The notes under the pieces are model-generated. The model saw nothing but the letters and a program-made list of their open reading frames with translations, made no database searches and had not been told where the DNA came from. A DNA stretch of 46,418 nt from Candidatus Poribacteria bacterium (GTDB taxonomy: Bacteria > Poribacteria > WGA-4E > GCA-2687025). The stretch is taken from contig VGLH01000013.1 of NCBI GenBank assembly GCA_016866785.1, positions 1-46,418 on the forward strand, given 5' to 3'. The position numbers and the translations under genes were made by a program. Every line of letters starts with the position of its first letter. Position 1 is the first letter of the stretch. Shown here one piece after another: positions 3,743 through 25,714 of the stretch.

Positions 3743-6700
3743 ATGACACGGCTTGCTTGCGCTGAGCGGATCGCTTCTAGCAGGAGCCAGACTTTGGCGT
3801 ACCAGAAACAGGCAACTCGCGCCCGACTCCTGATCGCCTGTCTCGCCGCCCTCGGATGGCTTTTCGAGGTCGGCTTCGCGCGGTCAGCGACGCCGCTGGT
3901 CGAGCTTCAGACGGACCTGCCGCTGCTGAACGCGGGCGACACCTTCCGCGTGAATCTTCGGGTCACCGACGCAACGCCCTTGTTTGGGGCGAGTGCGAAG
4001 CTCACGTACGACAGCTCACGATTGGAGTACATCGCGGCTGAGGTCGGCGAGCTCTTCCTGACGGCGGCTCGCTTCCCGCCCTTGATCAGCGTGCTCGAGG
4101 CGGGCGGGACGCTCGCGCTGACCACCAGCCGCAACGTCGGCGACTCCGAGGTGTTCCGCGACGGCGTGCTCGTCTCGATCCGCTTCCGCGCAGCTCGGGC
4201 AGGGATCGCGACGATGGGTCTCGACGCAGGCAGCATCACGCTGGTCACGAAGTCGGGCGTGCTGGTCGAGGGCTCCGAGCGCGTTCAGACCAAGGGTTTG
4301 TCGGTTTCCGTCGGCGCTGGCATGGTGCTGAACCCATCCAGCGGACCCCCTCGGACCGTGGCAACCGTTTCCGCGGCGGGTTTTCTGCCCAATGAAGATG
4401 TCCAGATCACGCTCGACGGCGTGGACATCGGAGCGCCGGCACGATCCGACGCCTCAGGGCAGGTGCTCTTCGCGCCGGTTGAGATACCGGACGCACCGGC
4501 GAGCGCACGTCCGATCGTGCTCCTAGGCGTCGAGTCGAAACGCCGGTATGAGACGCGCTTCCAGATCGTGCCCACGTTGGATGAGGCGACCGCTGCGTTC
4601 GTCGGTCCCGGCGACGTGCTACGCGTGAGCGGCGAGGGCTTCGGGGCGTCCGAGCGGGTGACGTTCCAGATCCAGGGCGTCGCCGTGACGACGATCCTCG
4701 GCGGAGATCAGGCGACTGCACAAGGCAAGCTGTCCACGCAGATCGGGCTGCCGAACGACCTGATCGTGGGACCGGCGGAACTGGTCGTCGAGGGCCGAAC
4801 GTCCCGTCTGAAAGCCTACCGACCGAACTTGACCGTTCAGCCCCGCATCACGACCGTCACGCCACCGATGGGCCCTGCGGGAACCAACGTCCTGATCGCT
4901 GCGAGCGGCTTCGCGCCGGGTCAGCAGGCGGACTGCCTCGTCAATGGGCAGGTCGCCGGCACGCAGACCGTGGGAACGCGAGGAACCGTCTCCTTCACCG
5001 TGCCGATCACAACGACGCTCGTGCCCCGCAGCGAACGCGCGGCGATCCCGATCATGGTTCGCGCGCCTGGGCTCGTCGCCGCCAGTGCTCCCTTCGTCTA
5101 CGTCCCCAACGCCACCATCACGGCGGTTACGCCGGAGGGCGGCGACTCGGTCGTCCTTCCTGGCGAGACCGTCCGCGTCACCGGAACCGGGTTCCTCGCC
5201 GACGCCGCCGTGACAGCGACCTTCGGCGCGGTTGCCGTGCCGCCCGTCACGGCGAAGGCGAACTCCTTCGGCGAGATCGACGTGCGCCTCTCGATTCCCG
5301 CGCAGCCGTCGGGTCCCCAGACGCTGACCGTCCGCACGGGAACCGCAGCCGCCAGCGACAAGAGCCTCACGGTCGCCGGACGGATCACGGACTGGGCGAT
5401 GGAGGGCGGCTCGTCGCCGAAGATCGGAGCGCTGGGAACCATCCTCGTCGTCCACGGAGCCGGATTCGTCGCCAACGAGACCATCTCATTCGATCTTGGG
5501 AGCCTATCGAACGTCCAGACGACCCGGAGCGACGCATCCGGCAGCTTCCGCGCCGCGATCGTGCTGAGGCAGCTTCCGGTCGACCTTCCCGCCGGAGTCG
5601 GCGAAGTCGTGGTGCGCGCGCGGGACAAGTCCAACACGGCGCAGACGACCGTGCTGCTCTCCAGTCCCAGCTCCAACGTGCTCGCGACGGCTTCCATCCG
5701 CTCGATCCCTGCGACGGCGGCGGAAGGCGATACGATCCATATCGTCGGGCTCGGCTTCGGACACAACCATATCGTCGGGCGTATCCTGCTCGACACGAAG
5801 CTCGACGCCCGCCTGTCGCCGCAGGTGCTCCCCGTCGTCGAAGTGGTCGCCGGGACGCGATCCGGCGATCTCATCCTCGCCGACCCGAACGGCGCGTTCG
5901 ATGTCGTCGTCGCCGTGCCACCGCTGCTGGCTGATGGGCGAGCCGGGGAGAAGGAGGTGCTGGCGGAGTTCCCCAAGGCGACCAGCGGAGCCCCGGCAAT
6001 CGCCGCCCCTCTGAATCTCGCCGCGTCGGTCCGTGTCACCGATGCCGCTGGGAACCGGGTCACGACGGTCGGCTCCGGCGACTCCGTGTTCATCCAGGCG
6101 ACGGGGTTCCAGCCGTTCGAGACGCCACAGGTGCAGTTGGGTTCCTCGGGTACCAGCTTCCTCGGCTCGGCGAACCAGCACGGGCAGATCGTGAACCTAC
6201 CGTACTTCGTGCAGCCGACGTCCGGCGGTGATCAAACGCTACAGGTCCGAGGACTCGCGTCTGGCACGATTGCCGAGACAGTTCTGAAGATCGTTCCCAA
6301 GCTCACACTGCTATCGCCGCCGCCGGGCTCCATCGTCACGACAGGGCTGTCCGTCACGGTGCGTGGAGCCGGCTTCCCCGATGGACCCGTGGCGTTCGAC
6401 ATCGACGGCATCGCGCTCACTCCGAGCCCATCGAACGTCACGTCGGTCGGCGGCACGTTCATCGCGTCGTTCACGGTCTTTTCGGGTTCCCTGCCCGTCA
6501 CAGGCGCGATACGAGCGACCGTCGGCTCGACCCGCGCGTCCTCCGAATCGCTCCGGTTCAGCACTCCGGGCTTGGCGATCACGCCGGCGAGCGGCAGAGC
6601 CGGCACGACCGTCAAGGTTCGCGGCGCGTTGGGCAATACGGTGACGTTCGGATCGCAGTCGCTGGGACTGCTGCTGAACAGCCAGTCGGTGGCTGGAGTG

Positions 6701-8734
6701 TGGGAAGGCGAGTTCGTCGTGCCGTCGGTGCCGGGCGGCAGCTATGTCGTGGTGGTCGGCACTCTACCGGTTGGTTATACCGCGCCCACGTTCGCCGTCA
6801 CGCCGACCGTCTCGATCAGCCCGACGACGGCGACTCCGGGCGAACGCGTCGCGATCGCGGGTGACGGGTTCGGCGGCGACCGAACGACAACGATCGCCAT
6901 CGGATCGTCGCGCACTCCGACTGTGCTGCGGTCGCGCTCCGACGGCTCGTTCAGCCTCTCCGTCGTCGTGCCGGCAGGTCCCGGCGGCATCACGCGCGTC
7001 GTCGCGTCAGACAACGTGAGCGCTGCGTCCGTCCAGCTCCGCGTGAGACCCGTGCTCCGCGCGGTCGAGCCGGATCCGAAAGCGGTCGTGGACGGCAAGC
7101 TCCCCGCCGGAGCCAATCTCGTCCTGATCGGCGATGGCTTCGAGATGAACGAGGAGCTCACGGCAACGGTCGGCGGCACGCCCGTGGTTCCGCGCACACG
7201 CTTGGCGGCGGATGCGAACGGCTCGCTGAACGCGACCGTACCGATGCCGGCGATTCCGACGGGGCTGCACGATGTCGCAGTGCGGGGGAGCAGCAGCGGC
7301 GAGACCGTATCCCTGACCGCTGCCGTCGGAGCGCTCGCGGTGATCGACGTTCCCAAGCCGTCCAGCGGCGCGCAGGGAACCGTGGTACTCGTCACGGGCT
7401 CCGGCTTCGGTGCCCGCGAGATCGTGCGCGTGAAGATCGGGTCCAGTCTCCTCGGCGAGAGCGAGTCGGATGCCTCTGGCACGTTCCGCGTCAACGAGAC
7501 CTTTGCCGGGATCGAGCCGAATGCCGCCCTGGACGTCACGGCGGTAGGGCTCGCGTCCGATCTCACGGTCGTGCGAGAGAAGGCGTTCACCTTCCGCGAC
7601 TCGCGCCCACCCACGATCCTGAGCGTCGAAGAGGACAGCAAGGGCAAAACGCTCATCACCGGCGACGTGTTGGCGATCACCGTCGTTCAGAGCGCGGATC
7701 CCGAGAAGATCACCGAAGCGACCTACTCCATCGGAACCGTGACCGGGGCGCTCACGGAGTCCAAGACGAACGCCGATGGGACGCGCGTCTGGACAGCGAC
7801 CGTGACGATCCCCGAAGGAGCATCCGTGGCGGCGCGAGCCGTGGATGTCACGTTGACCGACCTCGGCGGGAACAAGGGACGCCGGAGCACGACGACGCGC
7901 GTCACCATCGACGCCGTCATTACGATTACAGTCGGATCCGTGACGGGGTCTCCTGCGACGTCTGGGGAAACCATCGCCGTGACAGCGACCGGCGAACGGG
8001 GCGGAACCGCGACATTCTCCATCGCCGGGGTCGCGACCAACGTGCCCATGACCGAGTCCTCCGCTGGAACCTACAAGGGCTCCTACACGGCGAAGGAAGC
8101 CGACCGGGTCACGGATGGCGCCCTGTCCGTGGCGTTCGTCGACGCGTCGGGGAACCGGAAGACGCTCGTCGCCGATACGAAGGTGACGATCATCCGGGCG
8201 ACGGCGTATGCGCTGAACCTCGCCAAGGGACTCAACCTCATCTCGCTGCCAGTCGACGACCCCGGGCTCAAGAAGGCTTCCGATCTCATCGCGCGGCTCG
8301 GCACACGGGCGGCGTTCGTGCTGTCCTACGACACGACCCGCAAGCAGACCGTATCCTACGTGCGCGGCGCGCCGACGACGTCCGCCAGCAACGCGGCGAT
8401 CCGCGCAGGAGCTGCCTATCTCGTCATGATGGAGGGCGCGGCGACGCTCGACATCAAGGGAACGCCCTGGCGCGAAGAGGCGGTTCCCCTGGTTCGCGGC
8501 GTCAACTTCGTCGGTCTTGTCGCCGACTCCGGGTACGAGCGGGTATCGGACATCGCGCTCGCTCTGGGCGACTCGATCTCAGCGGTTGTCCACATGGACA
8601 CGACCAACAGCAGGTTCGTCACGTTCACGCCGCTGTCGGACCCGACTTCGCCGGACAATCGGCGCATGCGCCCAGGAGACGGCGTGCTCATCATCGCAAC
8701 GACCGCGACGGCGCTGCCAGCCAAGAAGCGCTAG
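3743..8734 (+). CDS. Giant exported cohesin-domain and TIG/IPT-repeat protein
   Basis: A protein of up to 1663 residues. After a basic stretch comes a signal-peptide-like core (RLLIACLAALGWLFEVGFARSA), then a cohesin-like domain (about 50-170: VELQTDLPLLNAGDTFRVNL, FGASAKLTYDSSRLEYI, VLVSIRFRAARAG). Roughly eleven immunoglobulin-like TIG/IPT-type repeats follow to about residue 1290, each with a strand like GTNVLIAASGFAPGQ and a later SDASG.F motif. Two similar C-terminal units start at LNLAKGLNLISLPVDD and VPLVRGVNFVGLV, a form common at the ends of such proteins. No LPXTG, PEP-CTERM or type IX tail is visible. The ATG at 3743 lacks a ribosome-binding site; a TTG at 3794 sits 7 bp after AGGAG and gives a cleaner signal peptide, so it is a serious alternative start. 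Likely a surface adhesin or scaffold. Confidence 0.85.
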   Translation: MTRLACAERIASSRSQTLAYQKQATRARLLIACLAALGWLFEVGFARSATPLVELQTDLPLLNAGDTFRVNLRVTDATPLFGASAKLTYDSSRLEYIAAEVGELFLTAARFPPLISVLEAGGTLALTTSRNVGDSEVFRDGVLVSIRFRAARAGIATMGLDAGSITLVTKSGVLVEGSERVQTKGLSVSVGAGMVLNPSSGPPRTVATVSAAGFLPNEDVQITLDGVDIGAPARSDASGQVLFAPVEIPDAPASARPIVLLGVESKRRYETRFQIVPTLDEATAAFVGPGDVLRVSGEGFGASERVTFQIQGVAVTTILGGDQATAQGKLSTQIGLPNDLIVGPAELVVEGRTSRLKAYRPNLTVQPRITTVTPPMGPAGTNVLIAASGFAPGQQADCLVNGQVAGTQTVGTRGTVSFTVPITTTLVPRSERAAIPIMVRAPGLVAASAPFVYVPNATITAVTPEGGDSVVLPGETVRVTGTGFLADAAVTATFGAVAVPPVTAKANSFGEIDVRLSIPAQPSGPQTLTVRTGTAAASDKSLTVAGRITDWAMEGGSSPKIGALGTILVVHGAGFVANETISFDLGSLSNVQTTRSDASGSFRAAIVLRQLPVDLPAGVGEVVVRARDKSNTAQTTVLLSSPSSNVLATASIRSIPATAAEGDTIHIVGLGFGHNHIVGRILLDTKLDARLSPQVLPVVEVVAGTRSGDLILADPNGAFDVVVAVPPLLADGRAGEKEVLAEFPKATSGAPAIAAPLNLAASVRVTDAAGNRVTTVGSGDSVFIQATGFQPFETPQVQLGSSGTSFLGSANQHGQIVNLPYFVQPTSGGDQTLQVRGLASGTIAETVLKIVPKLTLLSPPPGSIVTTGLSVTVRGAGFPDGPVAFDIDGIALTPSPSNVTSVGGTFIASFTVFSGSLPVTGAIRATVGSTRASSESLRFSTPGLAITPASGRAGTTVKVRGALGNTVTFGSQSLGLLLNSQSVAGVWEGEFVVPSVPGGSYVVVVGTLPVGYTAPTFAVTPTVSISPTTATPGERVAIAGDGFGGDRTTTIAIGSSRTPTVLRSRSDGSFSLSVVVPAGPGGITRVVASDNVSAASVQLRVRPVLRAVEPDPKAVVDGKLPAGANLVLIGDGFEMNEELTATVGGTPVVPRTRLAADANGSLNATVPMPAIPTGLHDVAVRGSSSGETVSLTAAVGALAVIDVPKPSSGAQGTVVLVTGSGFGAREIVRVKIGSSLLGESESDASGTFRVNETFAGIEPNAALDVTAVGLASDLTVVREKAFTFRDSRPPTILSVEEDSKGKTLITGDVLAITVVQSADPEKITEATYSIGTVTGALTESKTNADGTRVWTATVTIPEGASVAARAVDVTLTDLGGNKGRRSTTTRVTIDAVITITVGSVTGSPATSGETIAVTATGERGGTATFSIAGVATNVPMTESSAGTYKGSYTAKEADRVTDGALSVAFVDASGNRKTLVADTKVTIIRATAYALNLAKGLNLISLPVDDPGLKKASDLIARLGTRAAFVLSYDTTRKQTVSYVRGAPTTSASNAAIRAGAAYLVMMEGAATLDIKGTPWREEAVPLVRGVNFVGLVADSGYERVSDIALALGDSISAVVHMDTTNSRFVTFTPLSDPTSPDNRRMRPGDGVLIIATTATALPAKKR

Positions 8735-8756: not shown

Positions 8757-9686
8757 TCAGAAGAGCTCCCAGCGCGTTTTCCTCTCTCCGCTCTGCAAGT
8801 ACAGCCATTCCCCGGATCGATAGGAGACGTGCCGACGCAGGTGTGCAACACACGTCGGCACAGACTGGTCGAGAGCCTCGTATGCGCGCTGTAGGCTGTT
8901 GGCGAGACGAGCGTAGAGGTTCTTGTTCAGTTTCTTCATTTGGTCTCTGGCACGCGTCAGTTCTTCCACATAGAAGGCAGTTGCGTCGAGGTCGCTGCCC
9001 GCGGGCGATGACCCCCGGTGCGAGCGAACGTAGCGGATCGAGGCATGGGCATCGGCTTGTGCGTCCAACAAGTCGCGACGTACCTGCTGCGCTTTCTGTT
9101 CTTCCTGCGAGACGGCGTCTGGATCCGTCAGAGCCAGCAGCTCCGCGGCAGATACCCATCTACCCTCGTTCAGAATGAGGGTGTGGATGTACGTGAAACC
9201 CTTCCGATCCCGCATCCGCGCCTCCTCTTCGCCGAAGCACAGATACCAGTAGTCCCCACCCTCCTTGCGGAACGTATGGTGCTTCTCGTCGCCAACAGGG
9301 CTGGCGCCGCGCCGGAGTCCAAGCTCTGACATCGGTCGCTCTGCCATTGGGCGTGCCGTACCGAAGGGTTCCTGCGCGCCTTCTGTAGGTTCGAGCGCCG
9401 CGTCGAGAACCGTCGTCTTCGGATGCGAGGGTTCTTGGTTCTCCACATCCGCGCTGAAGCGAGCGCCACAAAGCTGCGCACCCGCGAGAATGGCGTCGTC
9501 GAGGCATGCGCCACGGAGATCGGCACCTCGAAGCGAGGCGCCTGTCAAGTTGGCACCACGTAGATTGGCGCTGCGGAGATCAGCTCCCTCTAGGTCGGCG
9601 CCCCGAAGGTCCGCCTCTTCAAGGTCCGCGTTTTGGGCGTTGACTCGCCGAAGGCTCGTTCTTCTTGCACTCATTGCTTCTGCCAC
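8757..9686 (-). CDS. Pentapeptide-repeat protein with a C-terminal regulatory-type domain
   Basis: About 309 residues. The first 80 carry roughly ten A(D/N)LXX pentapeptide repeats (for example ADLRGADLEGADLRSANLRG), which fold as a right-handed beta-helix. After a linker, the stretch FRKEGGDYWYLCFGEEEARM followed by RDRKGFTYIHTLILNEGRW resembles the short domain (FR..GEYW...Y....RLRD.KG..YL..LL..PGREF) that I recall next to ATPase or LuxR-type regulators in actinobacteria and myxobacteria. A charged helical segment follows (residues 195-280). The listed start is a GTG; an ATG at 9674 is the alternative, and neither has a good ribosome-binding site. It is convergent with the cohesin gene, 22 bp apart. 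A signalling or DNA-binding role is inferred. Confidence 0.75.
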   Translation of the reverse strand: MAEAMSARRTSLRRVNAQNADLEEADLRGADLEGADLRSANLRGANLTGASLRGADLRGACLDDAILAGAQLCGARFSADVENQEPSHPKTTVLDAALEPTEGAQEPFGTARPMAERPMSELGLRRGASPVGDEKHHTFRKEGGDYWYLCFGEEEARMRDRKGFTYIHTLILNEGRWVSAAELLALTDPDAVSQEEQKAQQVRRDLLDAQADAHASIRYVRSHRGSSPAGSDLDATAFYVEELTRARDQMKKLNKNLYARLANSLQRAYEALDQSVPTCVAHLRRHVSYRSGEWLYLQSGERKTRWELF

Positions 9687-9909: not shown

Positions 9910-10437
9910 TCACGGCTTGGGCAGCGCCCAGACGGTATGGATCCAGAATCGTACCAGGCTCTCAGCAAGCGACAAGCAGCCGACGTAGGAAGTCGGTTTG
10001 ACGAGACATGCGTTCGCATGCTCCTGATAGGCTTGTCGGATTGTGACGACATCTTCTCCGTCGGTCATAGCAACGACCGGGATCTCGCGCAGAGATGGCG
10101 TAGATTTCATCCTTCTGAGCAACGCGAGTCCGTCGCCGTTACCCACGTGCAAGTCAAGGAGCATGACGCTGACGGGAGTGGCTGCTGACGCGATTGTAGC
10201 CAGCGCTGCGGCTGGCTCGTGTGCGGTATCTATGTCGCCTGTGAAACCTGCGTCACGGAGAGCTTCACCGATGAGCACCGTGTCAGATCGGCTGTCGTCG
10301 ACAAGCAGGATCCGACTTAGACGGTCCCTGAGCGATGCAATAGAAGAGCACTTGTCTGCCACGGTAACATATGCCAAGCGTTCCATTGGCGCTGCTATCT
10401 CAGCGACTTGAGGGCATTCCGTGCGGTGACGCTTCAT
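9910..10437 (-). CDS. Rcp1-like response regulator receiver
   Basis: A single-domain receiver of the CheY fold with no output domain. From the listed start it has RILLVDDSRSD (acidic pocket D47/D48), the phospho-acceptor D95 in VMLLDLHVGNGDG, T124 in VAMTDGED and the conserved K146 in CLVKPTSY. The short loop after the acceptor and the KPTSY motif fit the Rcp1 group, which pairs with phytochrome-type kinases. It is divergent from the histidine kinase that begins at 10665, whose catalytic half is of the matching type, so they probably form a pair. The first 40 residues are not part of the domain; the ATG at 10386 is a plausible alternative start, and neither has a strong ribosome-binding site. 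Confidence 0.9.
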   Translation of the reverse strand: MKRHRTECPQVAEIAAPMERLAYVTVADKCSSIASLRDRLSRILLVDDSRSDTVLIGEALRDAGFTGDIDTAHEPAAALATIASAATPVSVMLLDLHVGNGDGLALLRRMKSTPSLREIPVVAMTDGEDVVTIRQAYQEHANACLVKPTSYVGCLSLAESLVRFWIHTVWALPKP

Positions 10438-10664: not shown

Positions 10665-12347
10665 ATGGACCACGCATCCTGGATGCCGCTCGAGGTCGCG
10701 TTGGGCGTGGGAACGCTCATCTCGACGGGCGTACTCGGATGGATCGTGCTCCTGCGGAACGCGCGAAGCTGGACGAATCGCCTGTTTGCCGTCCTGGCGT
10801 CTCTGATCTGCATTTACACCGTCCTGAACTTCCTGTCTCTGCATCCGTCGCTTACGGGCGGACACCAGCTTTTCTGGATCCGCGCCGTGATGTTTGCCAC
10901 GTCGTTCATCTGCCCGACGCTCCTGCTGTTCGTGCACACATTCCCCGGCGCTCAAATAGACATGCCGTGGTCGATGCGAGTGCCGCTCATCGCCTTGATG
11001 ACTGCCAGCGGCGCGCTATCGCTCACGCCACTCGTGTTCGTATCGCTTTCCTACGCCAACTCCGAGGCGATCCCCGTACCCGGTCCTGGCATGCCAGTCT
11101 GGGTACTCAACTCCGGGGGTCTCCTCATCATCACATTCGTGGTCCTTGGACTTCGATACCGAAGGCGTCGGGACGCCGAACGCGCTCGATACCGTCTCCT
11201 CCTCATCGGGATCGTCGCGACGTTCACCTGCATGTTCACATCGACCAACGTCGCCATCATCGCGTTCAACACGTCACGGTTTGTGTTCCTGGGACCGCCG
11301 TCGTTCGTCATGCTCGTCGTCTGCGTCACGTATGCGATCGTGCAGTATCAGTTGTTCGGCATCCGTTTGGCAGCCATCTACGCCTTGCTGGCGATGCTCT
11401 TCATACTCGCCGTGGCGAACGTCAGTGCGAACCAGTCCTATTCCGGGATGGCAATGGATTCGGTCGTATTCATCGGATGCGTCGTGACAGGAACGCTGCT
11501 GATTCGAGCATTCCACGCGGAGACGCGTCATCGATCCAGGCTCGAGCAGAGCGCACAGGAGCTTCGTCACGCCAATGAACGCTTGTCCGCCTCCAACGCC
11601 GAGTTGGAGCGCTTTACGCACGTCGCGTCGCACGACTTGCGGGAACCGCTTCGGGCGGTCATTGCCTATGGCGAGCTGTTCGAGCGACGCTACGTCAGGC
11701 TTTTGGACGAAGCCGGCATCGAGTTCTTAGGCTTTCTGGTCGGCGGCGCGCGCCGTATGGAGCGGCTTGTCGAAAGCCTGCTGACGCTGGCGCGCGTCGA
11801 AACGCGTGGTGGGACATTCGTCAATACGGATGTTGGCGAAGTGGTTCATCATGTCCGCAACGCACTGTCCGTGCAGATCGCTGAGACACAAGGCGAAATC
11901 CGCGTGGACCGACTCCCGATGATCCGAGCCGACCCCACACAGATCGCACAAGTTTTTCAGAACCTGATCGCCAACGCGCTCAAGTTTTGTGGACCCGGAC
12001 CGCCTCTGGTCATCGTCTCATCGGAGCGCCTCTCGGATGCATGGCTTTTCCGCGTGCGCGACAATGGGATCGGCATCGACCCGCGTTTCCACGATCAGGT
12101 GTTCGAGACGCTCCGCCGACTCCACACGCACGAAGAATACGAAGGCACCGGCATCGGGTTGGCAGTGTGCAAGAAGATCGTGCAGCGGCACGGTGGACGG
12201 ATCTGGGTCGAGTCGGAGATCGGACGCGGATCGACGTTCCTGTTCACCATCCCGGATCGAATCCCCGGCGAGCAGTGTGCGGTCGAGCCCTCAGCTCAGG
12301 CTGACCTCAATGGAGTAACCAACCAGGGCTGTTTCACGAATGTATGA
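10665..12347 (+). CDS. Membrane sensor histidine kinase, C-terminal tail altered by an IS
   Basis: A 560-residue kinase. Residues 8-280 form about seven to eight hydrophobic helices with short loops, a polytopic sensor without a large extracytoplasmic domain. A coiled segment (285-315) leads to the HisKA motif FTHVASHDLREPLRAV with phospho-acceptor H323, then the N-box (NLIANALKF, 433-441), G1 (DNGIGID, 466-472) and G2 (GTGIGLAVC, 494-502). The catalytic half is like that of cyanobacterial Cph1-type kinases. The last seven residues (QGCFTNV) are encoded by the end of an insertion sequence; removing it and one target copy restores RKA-stop, so the insertion costs almost nothing. The start ATG has only a distant GGAG upstream. 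Partner: the divergent receiver at 9910. Confidence 0.92.
   Translation: MDHASWMPLEVALGVGTLISTGVLGWIVLLRNARSWTNRLFAVLASLICIYTVLNFLSLHPSLTGGHQLFWIRAVMFATSFICPTLLLFVHTFPGAQIDMPWSMRVPLIALMTASGALSLTPLVFVSLSYANSEAIPVPGPGMPVWVLNSGGLLIITFVVLGLRYRRRRDAERARYRLLLIGIVATFTCMFTSTNVAIIAFNTSRFVFLGPPSFVMLVVCVTYAIVQYQLFGIRLAAIYALLAMLFILAVANVSANQSYSGMAMDSVVFIGCVVTGTLLIRAFHAETRHRSRLEQSAQELRHANERLSASNAELERFTHVASHDLREPLRAVIAYGELFERRYVRLLDEAGIEFLGFLVGGARRMERLVESLLTLARVETRGGTFVNTDVGEVVHHVRNALSVQIAETQGEIRVDRLPMIRADPTQIAQVFQNLIANALKFCGPGPPLVIVSSERLSDAWLFRVRDNGIGIDPRFHDQVFETLRRLHTHEEYEGTGIGLAVCKKIVQRHGGRIWVESEIGRGSTFLFTIPDRIPGEQCAVEPSAQADLNGVTNQGCFTNV
12315..12323 (+). repeat. Left target-site duplication of the IS
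   Basis: GTAACCAAC lies immediately left of the insertion sequence and is repeated exactly at 13537-13545. Nine bases fits the 8-10 bp duplication known for ISAs1-family elements. It sits in the last codons of the kinase gene (GTA ACC AAC). Confidence 0.9.
12324..12342 (+). repeat. Left terminal inverted repeat of the IS
   Basis: CAGGGCTGTTTCACGAATG is the exact reverse complement of 13518-13536. The match continues for six more bases with two mismatches. It contains the transposase stop codon (12334-12336, read on the minus strand). Confidence 0.95.
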
Positions 12348-13461
12348 GTCCTCTGAGTTGCCATGCTTGCTGGGGTTTGGCTGCGAATCGTCGAGTCGCT
12401 CGGGCGACGTTGTCGACTCCGTTGAGGCGCAGGAATCCCAGCAAACAGGCTCTTACCGTCGCCAAGACGCGGGGCGTAGCTCCGCAACGGACTTGGGATC
12501 GATCCTCGTCATAGGTGACGTCTCGGACTCGATGGTTGCGGTTCTCGATGTGCCAGTGCTGTCGGCGGAGGCGAAGCAGCACTTCGGGAGAACCGATTGT
12601 CGCGTCCAGACTCGTCAGACCTACCTCTACCTGCCGACGCGTTTGACCATGGCGCGTGGTTTCCCGCTGGAGGTGGTAGGCTTGCGTAGCATTGGGCCAA
12701 TCGTAGACGTGGGCGATGTAGTCGCCGAGCTCCGGACTGACCGTGAGCCGACGCCTCTCCCAGCGTCCTCGGTTCCGCTCGATGGTCTGGGCGGATCGTC
12801 GTGTGATCGCCAGCCCGTCTGCGTCCTCGAACAAACGCATCAGTTCTCGTCGAAGCGCCGGATGGTTGTCTTTGACCGGCATCAGGTAGTCGCCTCCCGA
12901 GTCACGGATCGCCTGCGCCAAGCCACGCTGAGTCAGGAGCGCGTCCACGGTCACCACACAGTGGTCCAGCCGCAACCCCTTGGCCAACTGCTCGGCGACG
13001 GGAATCTCGTTGGTCTTGTCGTCCACCGCCGCTTCCGACCAGACCAGCCCGATGTCGTGCAGCACCATCGAGAGGATATGGCAGCCACGGGCGCCCCGCT
13101 TCCTGCTGCCCCGGAGCGTCTTGCCATCCATCGCCAGAGCCGTCGGCGAATGGCTCTTGGTGTCCGTCCACTCCCGAGCCCAAGCGTGGAGGATACCTGC
13201 GAAGGCTTCCCAATCGAGTCGGCGCAGCACTCGGGAGAACGTCGCCGCACAGGGCGTCTCGGATCGCTCATATCCCAAGGCTTGGGTATACTCGGCGTGC
13301 AGCCGTCCCCATTCCGCGATCGCACGAGGACCTTGCGCGCCACAAAGAACCGCGAAGCACAACTGCAGCAGGATCGCCGCCAGAGGATGCTGCACCTTCG
13401 ACGCTTGGCGTGGATCCGATACAAGCGCTAATCTCTCTGCGAGCGATGGAAGTCGTTGCAT
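12334..13461 (-). CDS. ISAs1-family DDE transposase
   Basis: A 375-residue transposase that catalyses cut-and-paste movement of the surrounding element. The N-terminal region (RLALVSDPRQASKVQHPLAA, FAVLCGAQGPRAIAEWGR) is the helical DDE_Tnp_1-associated domain of ISAs1 proteins. The DDE core shows ALAMDGKTLRGSR (first Asp), VVTVDALLTQRG (second Asp) and HWHIENRNHRVRDVTYDEDR (the region with the Glu). I chose the ATG at 13461 because GAAAGGA precedes it by about nine bases; the ATG at 13485 is in frame but lacks such a site. The length is normal and no frameshift is visible, so it is probably active. Confidence 0.95.
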   Translation of the reverse strand: MQRLPSLAERLALVSDPRQASKVQHPLAAILLQLCFAVLCGAQGPRAIAEWGRLHAEYTQALGYERSETPCAATFSRVLRRLDWEAFAGILHAWAREWTDTKSHSPTALAMDGKTLRGSRKRGARGCHILSMVLHDIGLVWSEAAVDDKTNEIPVAEQLAKGLRLDHCVVTVDALLTQRGLAQAIRDSGGDYLMPVKDNHPALRRELMRLFEDADGLAITRRSAQTIERNRGRWERRRLTVSPELGDYIAHVYDWPNATQAYHLQRETTRHGQTRRQVEVGLTSLDATIGSPEVLLRLRRQHWHIENRNHRVRDVTYDEDRSQVRCGATPRVLATVRACLLGFLRLNGVDNVARATRRFAAKPQQAWQLRGLIHS

Positions 13462-13517
13462 CGTGATGATTCCTTTCTCACCCATGACCCATCATCACGA
13501 TTCTTCCATCGCTCAAC

Positions 13518-13536
13518 CATTCGTGAAACAGCCCTG
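13518..13536 (-). repeat. Right terminal inverted repeat of the IS
   Basis: CATTCGTGAAACAGCCCTG on the plus strand, the exact reverse complement of the left end at 12324-12342. Confidence 0.95.
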
Positions 13537-13545
13537 GTAACCAAC
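13537..13545 (+). repeat. Right target-site duplication of the IS
   Basis: GTAACCAAC, identical to 12315-12323. The following bases AGG AAG GCT TGA would complete the kinase frame in the uninterrupted ancestor and also include the AGGAAGG ribosome-binding site for the nitroreductase at 13562. Confidence 0.9.
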
Positions 13546-13561
13546 AGGAAGGCTTGACACG

Positions 13562-14719
13562 ATGGCGGACCCGTCCACAGGCGACGCCGGTAGAGCTCCC
13601 GATCTCAGCGCCAGGCATGTGCCTCTTCCCACCCCATCTGCGTTCTCGCTCTTGCCATTCGAGGAACAGGCGCTGTACCTGTGCCGAGTGGCGCATCTGG
13701 CGCCAAGCACACACAACACGCAGCCTTGGCGGTTTCGGATCGACCCTCGACGCGCATCGATCGAGCTATACCTCGACCGCGTCGCCGTATTGCCCGAATC
13801 CGATCCCAAGGGCAGGCAGGCGACCATCAGCGTCGGCTGCGCGCTTGAGAGTCTCGTCGTCGCAGCGGAGTGCTATGGCTTGGCGTCAGGGGTCAGCCTG
13901 TGTCAGCCAGACCGGGATACGATTCGACCGCTTGAGGACGACCAACCCGATCCGTTGGTCCATCTTGCGACGGTTCAGGTACAGCGGGCTCCTGAGCTTC
14001 AACCGTTGGGCGCGGACGATCCGCGCATCCGAGCCATGATCTCGCGCAGAATCGTCCGCGCCGAAATGGATGCGTCCACGCCAGTGCCGCCGTCCCTCGT
14101 CCAAGCGCTCACGTCACGATCGCTCGATGGCTTCGCCCATATCCATGCGCTGTCGTCGTCGAGCGTCGCAAAGCGGCTCTTGGCGGAGCTTCAGGGGCAG
14201 GCAGACGCGTTCGTCATCAACTCGAGCACGTTCCGACAGGAGCTTGCGTCGTGGTTGTTGCCCAACGACACGCACCTGGATGTCGGCATGCCTGGCATCG
14301 GGTTCGGACTCAACGACGACGAAGCGCGACGGATCCACGATGGCTTGGCTGGGCGGATTCCGCTGCGCCCGGAAGACGGTCTCAAGTTCTCCTTGGCTGG
14401 CAAGCGCGGTATCGACAGTTCGCCACTCGTCTTGTTGGTGGTCGTGCCGCGAGACGAGGTCGTGGAGTGGCTGAAGGCGGGTCGGGCGATGCAGTGCGCA
14501 CTACTCGACCTGGAACGTGAAGGGTTCCACGCCGCCATCCACGCTGCCGTGGCGGAAGTACCGCTCATCCGAAGCATGTTCCGTTGGGCAGGAGCCGATG
14601 GTGCGCTGGTCTGCGTCGTACGAGCCGGCAGAGCGCGTAACTCGGAGCATGCGAGGCGCCCCTACAGCCCTCGCCAACCCATCGACCGCGTCATGCTAGA
14701 CGACCTTTCTCAGGAGTAG
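13562..14719 (+). CDS. Acg-type nitroreductase-like flavoprotein
   Basis: A 385-residue protein of the nitroreductase fold. The motif HLAPSTHNTQPWRFRID (residues 45-61) is the hallmark of the Acg/TM1586 subgroup, and the C-terminal part (MFRWAGADGALVCVVRAGRA) closes the fold. Mycobacterial Acg (Rv2032) binds FMN under a lid that blocks normal reductase activity, so family members may store flavin or act on an unusual substrate rather than reduce nitro compounds. AGGAAGG (13546-13552) precedes the ATG by nine bases, just right of the insertion sequence. Before that insertion the start lay only a few bases after the histidine kinase stop, so the two genes were probably one operon. Its 3' end overlaps the convergent E1-like gene by 10 bp. 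Confidence 0.88.
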   Translation: MADPSTGDAGRAPDLSARHVPLPTPSAFSLLPFEEQALYLCRVAHLAPSTHNTQPWRFRIDPRRASIELYLDRVAVLPESDPKGRQATISVGCALESLVVAAECYGLASGVSLCQPDRDTIRPLEDDQPDPLVHLATVQVQRAPELQPLGADDPRIRAMISRRIVRAEMDASTPVPPSLVQALTSRSLDGFAHIHALSSSSVAKRLLAELQGQADAFVINSSTFRQELASWLLPNDTHLDVGMPGIGFGLNDDEARRIHDGLAGRIPLRPEDGLKFSLAGKRGIDSSPLVLLVVVPRDEVVEWLKAGRAMQCALLDLEREGFHAAIHAAVAEVPLIRSMFRWAGADGALVCVVRAGRARNSEHARRPYSPRQPIDRVMLDDLSQE

Positions 14720-17097
14720 GTCCACGCCTGGAAGGTGTGTTTGTTGATACGGGCGCGCGGCGGATACACGGCGCCAAGTCGCAAGCGAGCAATCGTCTCT
14801 GCGGCAATCGCACCCGCCATGGCAGCCGTCGATCCGAGTTGCGGTACGACCGTCGCCGTCGGCACCTCACTCCGTCCGGCGAGGATATCGCCGAGCTCGT
14901 CGCTGCGGTACCCTGGACCGACGAGCGCATCCGCAAACGCGAAGAAGCACGCACGGTCGCTCGGATTGTCCTCGAGTTGGTCGAGAGCGCGGTACACGTC
15001 GTCGTCTGACACGCCAAACGCCAGCGGGAAATCGGGGTTCCTGTCGTACGGCAGCACGTCCAACTGCACGCACGATCCGATATCCGTCAGCATGATCAAC
15101 GGGACGCCGTTCGAGCGACATTCCTCCCTGAGCCGAACCTTCGTTCTCGGGTCATCGACTTCGTCCACGACGACGCTGGCAGCCGGCTCCTCGTCGTTCC
15201 CGAGGATGAACCGGCGGATCGTCTCCTCGGTGATCCCCTCGTCATAGACGTAGACCGTCACATACGGATCGATCGAGTAGACCTGCGAGGCAGCGACGCG
15301 CGCCTTGTTCCTGAGAGCCGGTGTAAGAGGACTGGGGCGCTGATCGTTGGCATCAACCAGGTCGGAATACGTCAGTCGGACTCGGTTGACGTTCTCCATC
15401 TTGAAGACCATCTTGTCGGCGATTTTCAGATGGCTCGGTCGCATGTCCATCGCCACGCTGTGCAGGATGTTGTTGCCGACGCTCCCGCCTGCGACGGCGA
15501 CGGTTGTGTTCTCGAAGACACGTTGTATCGACTCCCACGTCATCTCTCGACGTGGATCGGTCACCAGTTTGGAGTTGCTCGCGACGGCGACGACGCGGTG
15601 CCAATATCGAGAACAGTAGCGGACAAGCTCGTTCCGGTCGGCGTAGTACGCGTAGGTTCCATAATCTATCGCCCCGTCGCCGGCGCGGAGGACGGCGTCC
15701 GAGTAGCGCTCCCATTCCGAGTTGAACCGGTCCCGCAGCGTCTCAGACGACCCAAGAACCGGCGAGATGACTGAAGAGGTGAGTCGCTCGTTGAGTCCGA
15801 ACATGGTCGGTTGCGTCACATCGTATTGGCTCGATGGCGGTATGCACGACGTGCGTCCGCCTTCGTGACGAATCACGGCAGTGCCGTCCGCTTGGAAGGA
15901 TATTTGACCCAATCGGTGGGCTGTTGGCGCGTCGAACAGCCGAGGCTTTCCGGGGAGATTCGCGTATGCCTGGCGCTCCACCTCCTCCAGCATGCCGTCG
16001 ATTTCGTCGCTCCAAGCGCGGGCATCGAAGATGTACAGAACAGGCTCGTCCTCAACGACGCGGTCGAGATATGCCCGCAGCCGCTCCCCAGTGATCCTCG
16101 CACCCACGAGCTCGCCACGCGCTGTCAACAGGCTTCCGAGCTGTCTCGATTGTGTGAGTCGCACTAAGTTGCTGCCCAGTTCGACGTCGTCGAGTCCGAG
16201 GTAGTGCCGCAGCGTAGCGCGAGTCAAAACGCCCTGCGCCAGCAGATCGCCGAGCACCCTTGCCAGTTGGCGCACATCCAGGAAGTACCCGGGGTAATGG
16301 TACGCCTCTGCGGATCGGTCGAGCTTCACATCTCGCACGGAAGCAAGGCCGAGCATATCAGCCCCAGTCGTATACCGCGGCACCACCCTCCCGTCTGCGT
16401 TCCGTACTGAGAACGCCGACGCAAGCAGCTTGGGATGGCATAAACCGGTGAGATACCGCCACGAACCCCCGTATCTCCGCATCACGTATCCATGCGCCAT
16501 CGCGAATGCTGCGGCGCTGTACCGAAGCGCCCGACGCGAGTTCGCCTTCCCATCTCCCGCCTCGGTTCCCACGGTATAGGCTGGAATCGCCGACATCCGC
16601 GATATGGACACGAGACCGGATAGCCCCGATCTGTCGGAGCCGAGAAGAGCCGTCTCGATCACGTTGCCAACTGGCTGATCCTTGCAGATGCAGTTGTTCA
16701 GGTCGGCGTTGCCGTGAGGCAGCCCGTCGCTCGGCACGAACCGAATCGTGAACCACTCCTCCATCGGGAGGGCTGCGTGCGCCGTGTGGCATGTGAATGT
16801 GGTTCGCACAAGGCATACGGACGACTTGGCGTCGTACTCGTCCGTCACGGGCACGGGACCATATCTGTCGAACGATCCACGCGCCGCCCAGACGAGGTCT
16901 CGCGCGGCGCTATCGTTCCATTCGGGGTCGTAGAGGGCTTTGGCTTCGTACAGACTCATCTCTGCCGACGCTAGCCTCAGCGCGGCGTCAGGCTGCGACA
17001 GGCTCTGCCCGAGACGATACAGCTCGTGATGCGAGGCCCCGTGCTCGCAGCTCTCGCTGCTGGGCGTGGCAAGTATCCCAGGTTGTGATACGGACAT
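14710..17097 (-). CDS. E1/ThiF-like protein with an autoinducer-synthase-like (GNAT) N-terminal half
   Basis: A 795-residue two-part protein. Roughly residues 50-300 follow the order of LuxI/PEP-CTERM-type acyl-transferases: VTDEYDAKSSVCLVR, then LVSISRMSAIPAY, a helix, YLTGLCHPKLLASAF, a glycine-rich stretch and HYPGYFLD. From about 530 there is an E1/ThiF Rossmann domain: VAVAGGSVGNNILHS (533-547), a strand ending in D561, NVNRVR with the usual Arg (569-574), NKARVAASQVYSIDP (597-611), and VVVDEVDDPRTKVRLREECR (641-660). This suggests ATP-dependent adenylation. No zinc-binding CXXC pairs are visible, and no obvious catalytic-cysteine loop. The start at 17097 follows GGAGG (17105-17109); an upstream in-frame ATG at 17154 lacks one. 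No ubiquitin-like, E2 or JAB gene is nearby. The target is unknown. Confidence 0.75.
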   Translation of the reverse strand: MSVSQPGILATPSSESCEHGASHHELYRLGQSLSQPDAALRLASAEMSLYEAKALYDPEWNDSAARDLVWAARGSFDRYGPVPVTDEYDAKSSVCLVRTTFTCHTAHAALPMEEWFTIRFVPSDGLPHGNADLNNCICKDQPVGNVIETALLGSDRSGLSGLVSISRMSAIPAYTVGTEAGDGKANSRRALRYSAAAFAMAHGYVMRRYGGSWRYLTGLCHPKLLASAFSVRNADGRVVPRYTTGADMLGLASVRDVKLDRSAEAYHYPGYFLDVRQLARVLGDLLAQGVLTRATLRHYLGLDDVELGSNLVRLTQSRQLGSLLTARGELVGARITGERLRAYLDRVVEDEPVLYIFDARAWSDEIDGMLEEVERQAYANLPGKPRLFDAPTAHRLGQISFQADGTAVIRHEGGRTSCIPPSSQYDVTQPTMFGLNERLTSSVISPVLGSSETLRDRFNSEWERYSDAVLRAGDGAIDYGTYAYYADRNELVRYCSRYWHRVVAVASNSKLVTDPRREMTWESIQRVFENTTVAVAGGSVGNNILHSVAMDMRPSHLKIADKMVFKMENVNRVRLTYSDLVDANDQRPSPLTPALRNKARVAASQVYSIDPYVTVYVYDEGITEETIRRFILGNDEEPAASVVVDEVDDPRTKVRLREECRSNGVPLIMLTDIGSCVQLDVLPYDRNPDFPLAFGVSDDDVYRALDQLEDNPSDRACFFAFADALVGPGYRSDELGDILAGRSEVPTATVVPQLGSTAAMAGAIAAETIARLRLGAVYPPRARINKHTFQAWTYS

Positions 17098-17226
17098 AGA
17101 GTCGCCTCCACACGATGGTCCAGAGATCGAGTCGGACACCATGGAAGGGACCACGCCGTATCATGGCGCAGACTATGCCGGGCTCCCGCGTCGGCAACGC
17201 GCGGCGTAGCGGTTGGCGCTTCTTCG

Positions 17227-17255: not shown

Positions 17256-17328
17256 ATGGATTGGATCGTTCGGCGCCTGACTTGGCGTTTCGATCAGATC
17301 GCGAAGCGCACGGCCGAGGAGGCGGGTG

Positions 17329-17865
17329 ATGCTTGCAGCACAGCCCCAGATGGGCCGGATGGCTGTTCTTTACGTCGAGGACAGCGCTCCCGATGCGACG
17401 TACATGAAGGAGTTGCTTGGGGAGGCCCTCGGTGGCGCTGTTGACGTCACGTGCGTCGAGGACCTCGGGAAAGCCCTTCGATACCTGCGAACGTTTCGGC
17501 CGACCGTCATTCTGTTGGACCTGTACCTACCCGACAGCTCGGGGCTGGAGACGGTCTCGCAACTCCATGCAGTCGCGCCTGGTTTGCCGATTGTCGTCGT
17601 GAGTGGCGCCGACGAGGAGTCTTTGCTCGCAAATGCCGTCGAGGCAGGAGCTCAGGACTACCTGCTCAAGGGTCACATCGACCAAGAGCGGCTGCTGCAC
17701 ACGATCCGATTCGCTATCGAGAGGCAGCGGATCCAGAACGAAAGATTCGTAAGCCTCGAGGAAGCTGCGCGTCTCCTGAATCCAAGGAGACTGTCGTCCA
17801 TCGAAGCCAACGTAGACTCCCTCCTGGACCGACTCGGGCAACCCCCAGACCGAGACACCGACTGA
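17329..17865 (+). CDS. Response regulator, receiver domain with short C-terminal tail
   Basis: A 178-residue protein with a CheY-type receiver: VLYVEDSAPD (E17/D18 acidic pocket), phospho-acceptor D64 in VILLDLYLPDSSG, S92 in VVVSGADEE and K114 in YLLKGH. After residue 130 there is a charged helical tail (RQRIQNERFVSLEEAARLL) and no recognisable output domain. GGAGG at 17318-17322 precedes the ATG at 17329 by six bases; the GTG directly before it is the alternative start. It is divergent from the E1-like gene, about 230 bp away. No kinase is adjacent; the one at 10665 is the only candidate in the window. The output is probably by protein-protein contact. Confidence 0.92.
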   Translation: MLAAQPQMGRMAVLYVEDSAPDATYMKELLGEALGGAVDVTCVEDLGKALRYLRTFRPTVILLDLYLPDSSGLETVSQLHAVAPGLPIVVVSGADEESLLANAVEAGAQDYLLKGHIDQERLLHTIRFAIERQRIQNERFVSLEEAARLLNPRRLSSIEANVDSLLDRLGQPPDRDTD

Positions 17866-24052: not shown

Positions 24053-25714
24053 TCACGCGGAGAGCGCGTACGGATCGTCCTCTCCCTCGACGTCGCCAAT
24101 GAGAGACGCGATCTCCCTGTCGGAGGTCGTCAGAACCGCCTTCACTCTCTCGACACCCGGGGGACCCGCCGCCTCGATCCGCCAGCCGCCGGCGGGGATG
24201 CTCACGGTCTCGCCGCGACGGACCCGGTTGTCTTCGTCCAGCCGATTGGGGTAGAGCACGAAGAGCGATCCGTCGCTCGACAGGTTCACGACGAACAGCC
24301 GACCATCCGCGTTCGGCGTGACACGAAACGACAGCGATTCGCCGATTGCCACGATGGCAGGTCCGTCGAGACCGATGCGCACGGGCGTCGTGGTGTTGCG
24401 CACCGCAGCCAGGGCTTTGGACGCTGCCGCTGCCGCCAAGTGCTCCGAAACGGCGTCGATCGCGCTCGCCAGTTCGTCGGACTGGAATGACATGGCAAGC
24501 TCGCACGTGCCCGACATCGGATCGCTGATCTCCAGCGTCGTCCGATCCGCAGAAGCGTCATAGCGAACGCGAACGATGCGGTCCAGCGGCTTCGCGCCGG
24601 TGAACACGGCTTCCGGCAGCGACAGCGCGGAGATCGCACGCGCCGCTTCGGAGGGAGTGTCGGACTTCACCAACACCCGAAGCGATGTGGCGGGCTCTGC
24701 CGCGACGCCGATGCGCACCTGCGGTTCCCCTGGGTCCGCAACCGAACTTGGCGCTTGCGCCACCGCCTCGCCGCCGACGTTGAGCGCGAACGAGACGTTG
24801 GGCCCGGACAGCATCGGGTCCTGGGCGAAGCCGAACTCGCGGATGCGCCGGGCGGCGTACTGCCGGAGCTCAGCGAGCGTGAGTAATCCATCCAAGTCGC
24901 TGTCCGCGATGCCCCGAATTCCCTCCGCCAGGAAGTAGGTGAGCGCTCCGTGCTCAAGCTGGGGAGCCTCGACGACGACCTGATCCGGTTGGCAACCCGC
25001 CAACTCGACGACACCGCCCACGCCGGACGCGGACAGGTCGCCCACATCCAGCAGCGCCTCCGAAGCGCCATCGGGCAATCCGAGACCTGCGTCGAAGCTG
25101 CGTTCGATCTCCGCGCGCGTCTCGCGGGACGACAGCCGGATCGAGTCGCGATCCACATCGGCGACGCGCAGCGCGTTTCCGCCAAGGTGGCGCGATGCCG
25201 TGCCGGAATGGCAGCAGTCGAGCACGGCGATCTTGCGAGCCGCGTCGATGCCGGACAGCCAGCGGTTCAGGTCATCATCGCGGATCAACGTGATATCGAG
25301 CAGGGCGCTGTCCCATGCCCACAGGCACTCGTCGTAGCCGTCCTCTTCATCTCCGTTGTCGTCGATGAGCTGCACGCCGTGCCCGGCGAAGTAGAAGAGC
25401 ACGGTGTCCGCCGGGCTCGCCGACGAGCGGAGCCATCCCTTCATCTCCGATGCGATAGCTCTGCGAGTGGCTTGTTGTCCCACGAGTATGCGCACGTTCT
25501 CGGGCGGAAAGCCCGCGTGGGACACGAGGGCATCGCGCATCAAGAGCGCGTCGCTCTCGGCGTAGTGTAGATCGCGCAGCCCCGGAAACTGGTAGTCGTC
25601 AATGCCGATGGGGAGGGCGTAGTTCTCCGCCTGTGCCGATTGCGCCGCGCAAAGGGCAGCGATGACTGCCACGACGGCAAGGAGCCCACGCCGACGAAGC
25701 GCGGATGATCTCAT
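24053..25714 (-). CDS. Secreted caspase-like protease (peptidase C14) with DUF4384 domain
   Basis: A 553-residue exported protein. Signal peptide: basic MRSSALRRRG, then LLAVVAVIAALCAAQSAQA with cleavage likely near 29/30. The caspase fold follows (about 32-330) with catalytic H112 in FYFAGHGVQL and C168 in AVLDCCHSG. A DGLLTLAELRQYAARRI stretch is EF-hand-like and typical of such proteases. The C-terminal part (about 435-540: IGESLSFRVTPNADGRLFVV, LYPNRLDEDNRVRRGE) is a DUF4384 domain, common beside caspases. Bacterial members usually cleave after Arg or Lys. The gene starts 8 bp after the stop of another caspase-like gene, so they form an operon driven from about 27650. Confidence 0.9.
   Translation of the reverse strand: MRSSALRRRGLLAVVAVIAALCAAQSAQAENYALPIGIDDYQFPGLRDLHYAESDALLMRDALVSHAGFPPENVRILVGQQATRRAIASEMKGWLRSSASPADTVLFYFAGHGVQLIDDNGDEEDGYDECLWAWDSALLDITLIRDDDLNRWLSGIDAARKIAVLDCCHSGTASRHLGGNALRVADVDRDSIRLSSRETRAEIERSFDAGLGLPDGASEALLDVGDLSASGVGGVVELAGCQPDQVVVEAPQLEHGALTYFLAEGIRGIADSDLDGLLTLAELRQYAARRIREFGFAQDPMLSGPNVSFALNVGGEAVAQAPSSVADPGEPQVRIGVAAEPATSLRVLVKSDTPSEAARAISALSLPEAVFTGAKPLDRIVRVRYDASADRTTLEISDPMSGTCELAMSFQSDELASAIDAVSEHLAAAAASKALAAVRNTTTPVRIGLDGPAIVAIGESLSFRVTPNADGRLFVVNLSSDGSLFVLYPNRLDEDNRVRRGETVSIPAGGWRIEAAGPPGVERVKAVLTTSDREIASLIGDVEGEDDPYALSA

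Follow-up and report, generated by a model that had tools for sequence, protein, structure and literature searches.

Rv1355c, a protein now known as TrzS, combines a ThiF cyclase and a flavin oxidase in one chain; this fusion and the acyltransferase TrzA jointly produce N-acyl tryptazolone (PMC12856293). TyzABC and OxzAB carry out equivalent chemistry on tyrosine (and phenylalanine), dividing the same domains differently among their proteins, and TyzA has been described as adopting a FeeM/acyl-homoserine-lactone (AHL) synthase fold (PMC10404671). Small-molecule synthesis is the published job of this family (PMC10404671, PMC12856293), while the physiological role of acyl-oxazolones is described as a major unresolved question (PMC12856293). 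Here we describe a related pair of genes from the little-studied phylum Poribacteria, carried on contig VGLH01000013.1 of a Candidatus Poribacteria bacterium; the window is the whole stretch of 46,418 nucleotides that was analysed. The pair comprises a flavin-dependent oxidase gene and an E1/ThiF-type gene (E1), and the locus looks like a rearranged synthase of acyl-oxazolones, small ring compounds of lipid-like character known from tuberculosis bacteria. On balance, we favor reading the two proteins as a two-polypeptide synthase whose product would be the oxazolone (azlactone) of an N-acyl amino acid, or a closely related compound, with an adjacent seven-transmembrane (7TM) histidine kinase as the probable sensor of its product. 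The features of the pair are as follows.

13562..14719, plus strand: flavin-dependent oxidase gene (flavoprotein), Acg-type nitroreductase fold, TyzC-like; 385 amino acids, motif APSTHNTQPW.
14710..17097, minus strand: E1/ThiF-type gene, 795 amino acids; N-terminal half (possible acyltransferase), linker and C-terminal ThiF cyclase-type domain.
14710..14719: tail-to-tail overlap of the two genes, 10 bp (tcaggagtag); an overlap of identical length occurs in locus L002.
14767..15681, minus strand: ThiF domain of E1 (residues 473-777); matches NF005901 at 1.8e-30 and shares ATP-site residues with TrzS-type cyclases.
16198..16980, minus strand: N-terminal domain of E1 (residues 40-300); by position, element order and motifs a probable, unproven N-acyltransferase of the LuxI/TyzA type.

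Both proteins can be assigned to the families from which oxazolone synthases are built. The flavoprotein matches the NCBIfam model of Acg family FMN oxidoreductases over residues 41-378 (NF047509; 2.4e-56), with a score just under the curated cut-off (191.6 versus 199 bits), and it also matches the structure of Acg (PDB 2ymv, 5e-10). The C-terminal domain of E1 is recognized by the Pfam ThiF model (7.8e-8). Importantly, a single model, that of the Rv1355c family (NF005901), covers both proteins: its positions 58-325 align with E1 and its positions 374-645 with the flavoprotein, at 105.9 bits and at 1.5e-13 (49.9 bits), respectively, both far below the curated cut-off of 476 bits. Unlike in members of that family, the ThiF and oxidase parts are not fused here and lie in two convergent genes; they are encoded side by side, and loci of oxazolone biosynthesis have the two parts adjacent or fused. 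We observed the fused ThiF-flavoprotein form in Rhodococcus, in Nocardia and in a further phylum. These data support the idea that the pair is a split form of the Rv1355c-type ThiF and Acg-flavoprotein architecture, as the original prediction had proposed when it placed the two genes in an Rv1355c/MoeY-type system. The function of Rv1355c, now known, corrects that prediction, and because the Rv1355c model matches both proteins and Rv1355c is TrzS, the pair is most likely a split synthase of the oxazolone type.

The arrangement of the genes also appears to be maintained. Both reading frames are open, complete and convergent, and they overlap end to end by the 10 bp initially reported. A longer E1 reading frame beginning at a GTG at 17154 is unlikely, because a good ribosome-binding site, GGAGG, precedes the ATG at 17097. 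Orthologous convergent pairs are present in two other genera of the same family, one with the 10-bp overlap of L002 and one with a 15-bp gap; their E1 proteins are 55% and 50% identical to that of the window, and their flavoproteins 52% and 45%. Since the convergent layout is kept in two other genera, it is more than chance. E1 is present in only 3 of 85 genomes of the phylum, and the flavoprotein is confined to exactly those three among the six genomes of the family. A scan of a genome collection recovered relatives only in two Poribacteria metagenome-assembled genomes, apparently identical to G004 and G008, and a search of viral contigs recovered no relatives.

The residues of the ThiF domain are consistent with a cyclase. 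In an alignment with ThiF proteins from Rhodococcus, Mycobacterium, Nocardia, Streptomyces and other sources, the ATP-site residues N569, N571, R572, K598 and D648 of E1 are shared with TrzS-type cyclases. D648 aligns with the aspartate of the TrzS-type E-C-D (E-x-D) motif, taken as TrzS D217, and is invariant in nine sequences. The E1 protein and its two orthologues have no conserved cysteine within the ThiF core and no CxxC motif; their only invariant cysteines lie outside that core, at 136, 138 and 495. Because a conserved core cysteine and a CxxC motif are both missing, the ThiF core fits a cyclase that resolves its adenylate through ring closure rather than a thioester-forming E1. By analogy with the characterized enzymes, the N-terminal half of E1 would probably acylate an amino acid with a fatty acyl group; the ThiF domain, like TyzB and TrzS, would adenylate the carboxylate of the N-acyl amino acid so that the ring closes with loss of AMP; and the flavoprotein, like TyzC and TrzS, would use O2 to desaturate the amino-acid part. 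The original prediction had expected an acylated and adenylated product. Synthesis of a small molecule agrees with our findings, but an adenylated end product does not: what would be expected is an oxazolone, an N-acyl amino acid that has been cyclised and usually also desaturated, with the adenylate only an intermediate.

None of the known systems compared here arranges these domains in the same way, and we found no earlier description of an N-terminal half and a ThiF domain in one protein beside a separate oxidase. In TrzAS of Mycobacterium and Rhodococcus (Rv1356c-Rv1355c), the ThiF cyclase-type domain and the flavin-oxidase domain come from the families seen in the window pair; however, TrzS is one fused protein and TrzA a separate gene, whereas here ThiF is joined to the N-terminal domain and the oxidase is separate, on the other strand. 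TyzABC, which makes N-acyl tyrazolone in Mycobacterium tuberculosis, resembles the window in having a separate flavin oxidase gene beside the ThiF gene, and in that one of its three genes lies on the opposite strand; it differs in having three genes rather than two, with the acyltransferase as a separate protein. OxzAB of Pseudoalteromonas rubra (acyl tyrazolones and phenazolones), which we compared by description only, has the same domains and proposed chemistry (PMC10404671) but combines a ThiF-oxidase fusion with a separate acyltransferase.

In addition to the putative synthase genes, the locus contains a conserved sensor-kinase neighbour, a point that the original prediction missed.

10665..12347, plus strand: 7TM sensor histidine kinase (Pfam HisKA_7TM, HisKA and HATPase_c), the candidate sensor; the next gene upstream of the flavoprotein gene if an insertion sequence (IS) is disregarded.
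12324..13536: IS element between the kinase and flavoprotein genes, with a DDE transposase gene (12334-13485, minus strand) and perfect 19-bp inverted repeats.

All three Poribacteria genera that have the system carry a kinase gene of this kind ahead of the flavoprotein gene. In L007, the frame of a 563-amino-acid histidine kinase overlaps the flavoprotein gene by 4 bp, and in L006 a 546-amino-acid kinase lies 63 bp upstream of it. The 7TM model matches the kinases of the window and L007; that of L006 falls under the listed threshold, yet aligns end to end. Overall, the window kinase is 48% and 47% identical to its two orthologues, and 43% identical in the sensor part. Full-length relatives of the kinase are limited to three of the six family genomes, those with E1 and the flavoprotein, and the other three match mainly in the kinase part; several of these six genomes, on which the co-occurrence of kinase and enzymes rests, are incomplete. 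In the window, the IS is flanked by a 9-bp target duplication, GTAACCAAC, at 12315-12323 and 13537-13545; the insertion looks recent and alters the last residues of the kinase. When the flanks are joined without the IS, the kinase stop would lie four bases ahead of the flavoprotein start. The full papers on TyzABC and TrzAS mention no histidine kinases (PMC10404671, PMC12856293).

Similar linkage occurs in a second phylum, which may be Bacteroidota to judge by its gene style. A ThiF-profile search of 297 of its genomes found ten loci in eight genera and five families (L018, L024, L033-L039 and L078, the ThiF gene of L078 being cut by the contig end), and their ThiF proteins belong to the same group as that of the window. 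All ten encode a TrzA-like acyltransferase and ThiF, followed by a histidine kinase of about 700-740 amino acids and a receiver-kinase protein, and most reading frames in these operons abut or overlap. The kinase is Pfam-confirmed as 7TMR-DISM in seven loci (L018, L024, L033, L034, L036, L038 and L039) and was assigned by position, length and resemblance in L035, L037 and L078. These operons thus share with the window a ThiF protein of the same group, a TrzA-like acyltransferase (as proposed here for E1) and an adjacent 7TM kinase, but the acyltransferase is separate and the kinase is of the 7TMR-DISM family. ThiF is fused to an oxidase in three of the ten, while the other seven (L018, L024, L033, L036, L038, L039 and L078) have no oxidase gene in the stretch, which implies that desaturation is optional there; they may yield an oxazolone that stays saturated, or an N-acyl amino acid cyclised in some other form. 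Because the ten loci share descent, they are not ten independent events, and independence is to be counted between phyla. A plasmid search with the acyltransferase of this phylum gave no match. In Actinobacteria, genes of the GGDEF or GGDEF-EAL-like type adjoin the Rhodococcus and Nocardia loci, and the published authors remarked on GGDEF-type neighbours in M. tuberculosis. The main new point of this analysis is this linkage of the same chemistry to different signalling proteins in three lineages.

From the families involved, the locus is probably a signal synthase with its own sensor, in which the adjacent 7TM kinase would sense the product so that the whole forms a signal-and-receptor unit. 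The closest functional analogy is LuxI-type AHL signalling, which likewise would pair a ring signal derived from an acyl amino acid with a neighbouring sensor; in contrast, the ring here would be closed by ThiF adenylation and not from S-adenosylmethionine, the sensor is a membrane histidine kinase, and there is no sequence match to LuxI or FeeM. The same chemistry might instead have no part in signalling: its product, an oxazolone or N-acyl dehydroamino acid, would be a lipid of the envelope, an antibiotic or a metabolite of stress, while the kinase would only regulate the genes or be a neighbour kept for other reasons. The literature discusses both N-acyl amino acids and oxazolones as antibiotics, as constituents of membranes and as metabolites linked to stress, and tryptazolones are more abundant inside cells (PMC12856293). 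We consider a non-signal role unlikely, though worth serious attention: two phyla show the kinase linkage, each with a 7TM family of its own (HisKA_7TM and 7TMR-DISM), and a third type of signalling genes adjoins the actinobacterial loci. The conserved, often overlapping kinase gene beside the synthase is a concrete receptor candidate and makes the signal idea directly testable, and the pathway is extended to Poribacteria and another phylum. More tentatively, acyl-oxazolones or their N-acyl amino acid precursors might be widespread quorum-type signals, with a ThiF-based synthase and a dedicated 7TM histidine kinase encoded alongside in at least two phyla, and with a Poribacteria version that packs acyltransferase and cyclase into one protein.

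Several observations weigh against a sensed oxazolone made by this pair. First, the kinase linkage could be regulatory rather than ligand sensing. Second, two further genes lie on the upstream side of the kinase, one of them a receiver.

9910..10437, minus strand: single-domain response-regulator receiver (Pfam), divergent from the kinase; same position in L007, 33% identical to the L007 receiver.
8757..9686, minus strand: pentapeptide-repeat protein; same position in L007, 46% identity.

The L007 receiver (L007:11310-11813) does not have the phospho-acceptor aspartate (VGIN versus LDLH in the window), and a role for it as a partner is doubtful. Third, in our alignment, which is weak in that region (16-21% identity), the presumed equivalents of TrzS R540 and Q651 (oxidase residues near FMN, in the presumed numbering of the mutated M. 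smegmatis protein) are not conserved in the flavoprotein. Fourth, the N-terminal half of E1 is difficult to assign. Residues 1-300 and the orthologous stretches have no match in Pfam (hmmscan, E up to 10) and none in NCBIfam. AlphaFold did not give a usable model of the full-length protein from three sequences (predicted local distance difference test, pLDDT, 35.7) or of the N-terminal half with nine TrzA-type rows (pLDDT 48, predicted TM-score 0.41).

The lack of a family match and of a confident model would also be expected if the N-terminal half were not an acyltransferase, and E1 and the flavoprotein modified an N-acyl amino acid or other carboxylic acid supplied by an unlinked enzyme. Similarly, hhalign of this half against TrzA-type and FeeM-type profiles is not significant, HMMER ranking with a TrzA-type model gave no signal for E1, the LuxI (PF00765) and FeeM (PF21926) models do not match this half and miss the locus in genome searches, and Foldseek with the N-half model returned unrelated proteins (best E 0.35). 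The original prediction had described a LuxI-like or GNAT half; no profile match bears this out. However, the profile test is insensitive, because neither Pfam nor NCBIfam has a model that matches the TrzA-type acyltransferase beside TrzS in Rhodococcus or the acyltransferases of the second phylum. By eye, the order of elements agrees with the TrzA type: a short start resembling A-K-x-L-x-D, an invariant YG, a pair of strands with the invariant R119 at its end, SISR, LCHP and YxYP. The semi-global profile score lies modestly above background (31.4, against 24.8 +/- 3.8 for shuffled sequences, with 6 of 100 shuffles reaching 31.4). In a custom-profile ranking of 60 proteins, a weak test in which two of the proteins are the E1 orthologues, the three N-terminal halves rank near the top, about level with one true but distant TrzA control and lower than a second one. 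The neighbours scanned include no separate acyltransferase, whereas the relatives examined have one beside ThiF, and an acyltransferase-ThiF fusion has precedent, since a Streptomyces plasmid encodes an apparent GNAT-ThiF fusion. Together, these results make it fairly likely that the N-terminal half is an acyltransferase, and the supply of a substrate by an unlinked enzyme less likely. A MAFFT alignment of this half with TrzA that fits the register seen by eye was picked from about 120 choices of rows and trimming; as it was chosen to fit, it was not used as evidence.

The Streptomyces fusion (L015:3029-4897, 622 amino acids) is followed by a beta-ketoacyl-acyl carrier protein synthase III gene and has no oxidase nearby. 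Its ThiF domain is 48% identical to second-phylum ThiF and 26% identical to that of the window, and the fusion probably arose independently of the Poribacteria one. On another Streptomyces plasmid, a ThiF gene precedes a GNAT gene, again with no oxidase nearby (L014:3731-5529). A different fusion, of a FeeM-type acyltransferase domain to an apparent class V aminotransferase, was seen at L041:1423-3084 (553 amino acids).

Less probable still is an open-chain N-acyl dehydroamino acid as the product, with the ring only transient; open-chain products are reported for stieleriacines, thalassotalic acids and kyonggic acids. The producers of those compounds have ThiF, nitroreductase and acyl synthase genes, and no oxazolone was seen (PMC12479983); however, work-up with acid or alcohol readily destroys oxazolones, and the closest relatives of the window's ThiF domain are proteins of the TrzS type, from which the ring is released.

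That E1 acts as a ubiquitin-like E1 or in another E1-based protein-tagging or antiphage system is extremely improbable: the ThiF fold and a very weak PADLOC E1-E2 match (E 0.029) are set against the cysteine pattern described above, closest relatives that are oxazolone-type cyclases, and the absence of any ubiquitin-like, E2 or JAB protein among the 19 window proteins scanned, a set that does not cover short or unscanned reading frames. Score, cysteine content and context led us to reject both the protein-tagging reading and that of the tRNA enzyme TcdA, and the original argument against tagging, from the lack of such genes nearby, stands and agrees with the published job of the family.

A few further genes of the window are recorded here. 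A second single-domain receiver, divergent from the E1 gene, lies at 17326-17865; we saw no receiver at the corresponding place in L006 or L007. A 553-amino-acid caspase-domain protein with a C-terminal DUF4384 is encoded at 24053-25714, and a 1663-amino-acid protein with a cohesin-type and several TIG domains at 3743-8734.

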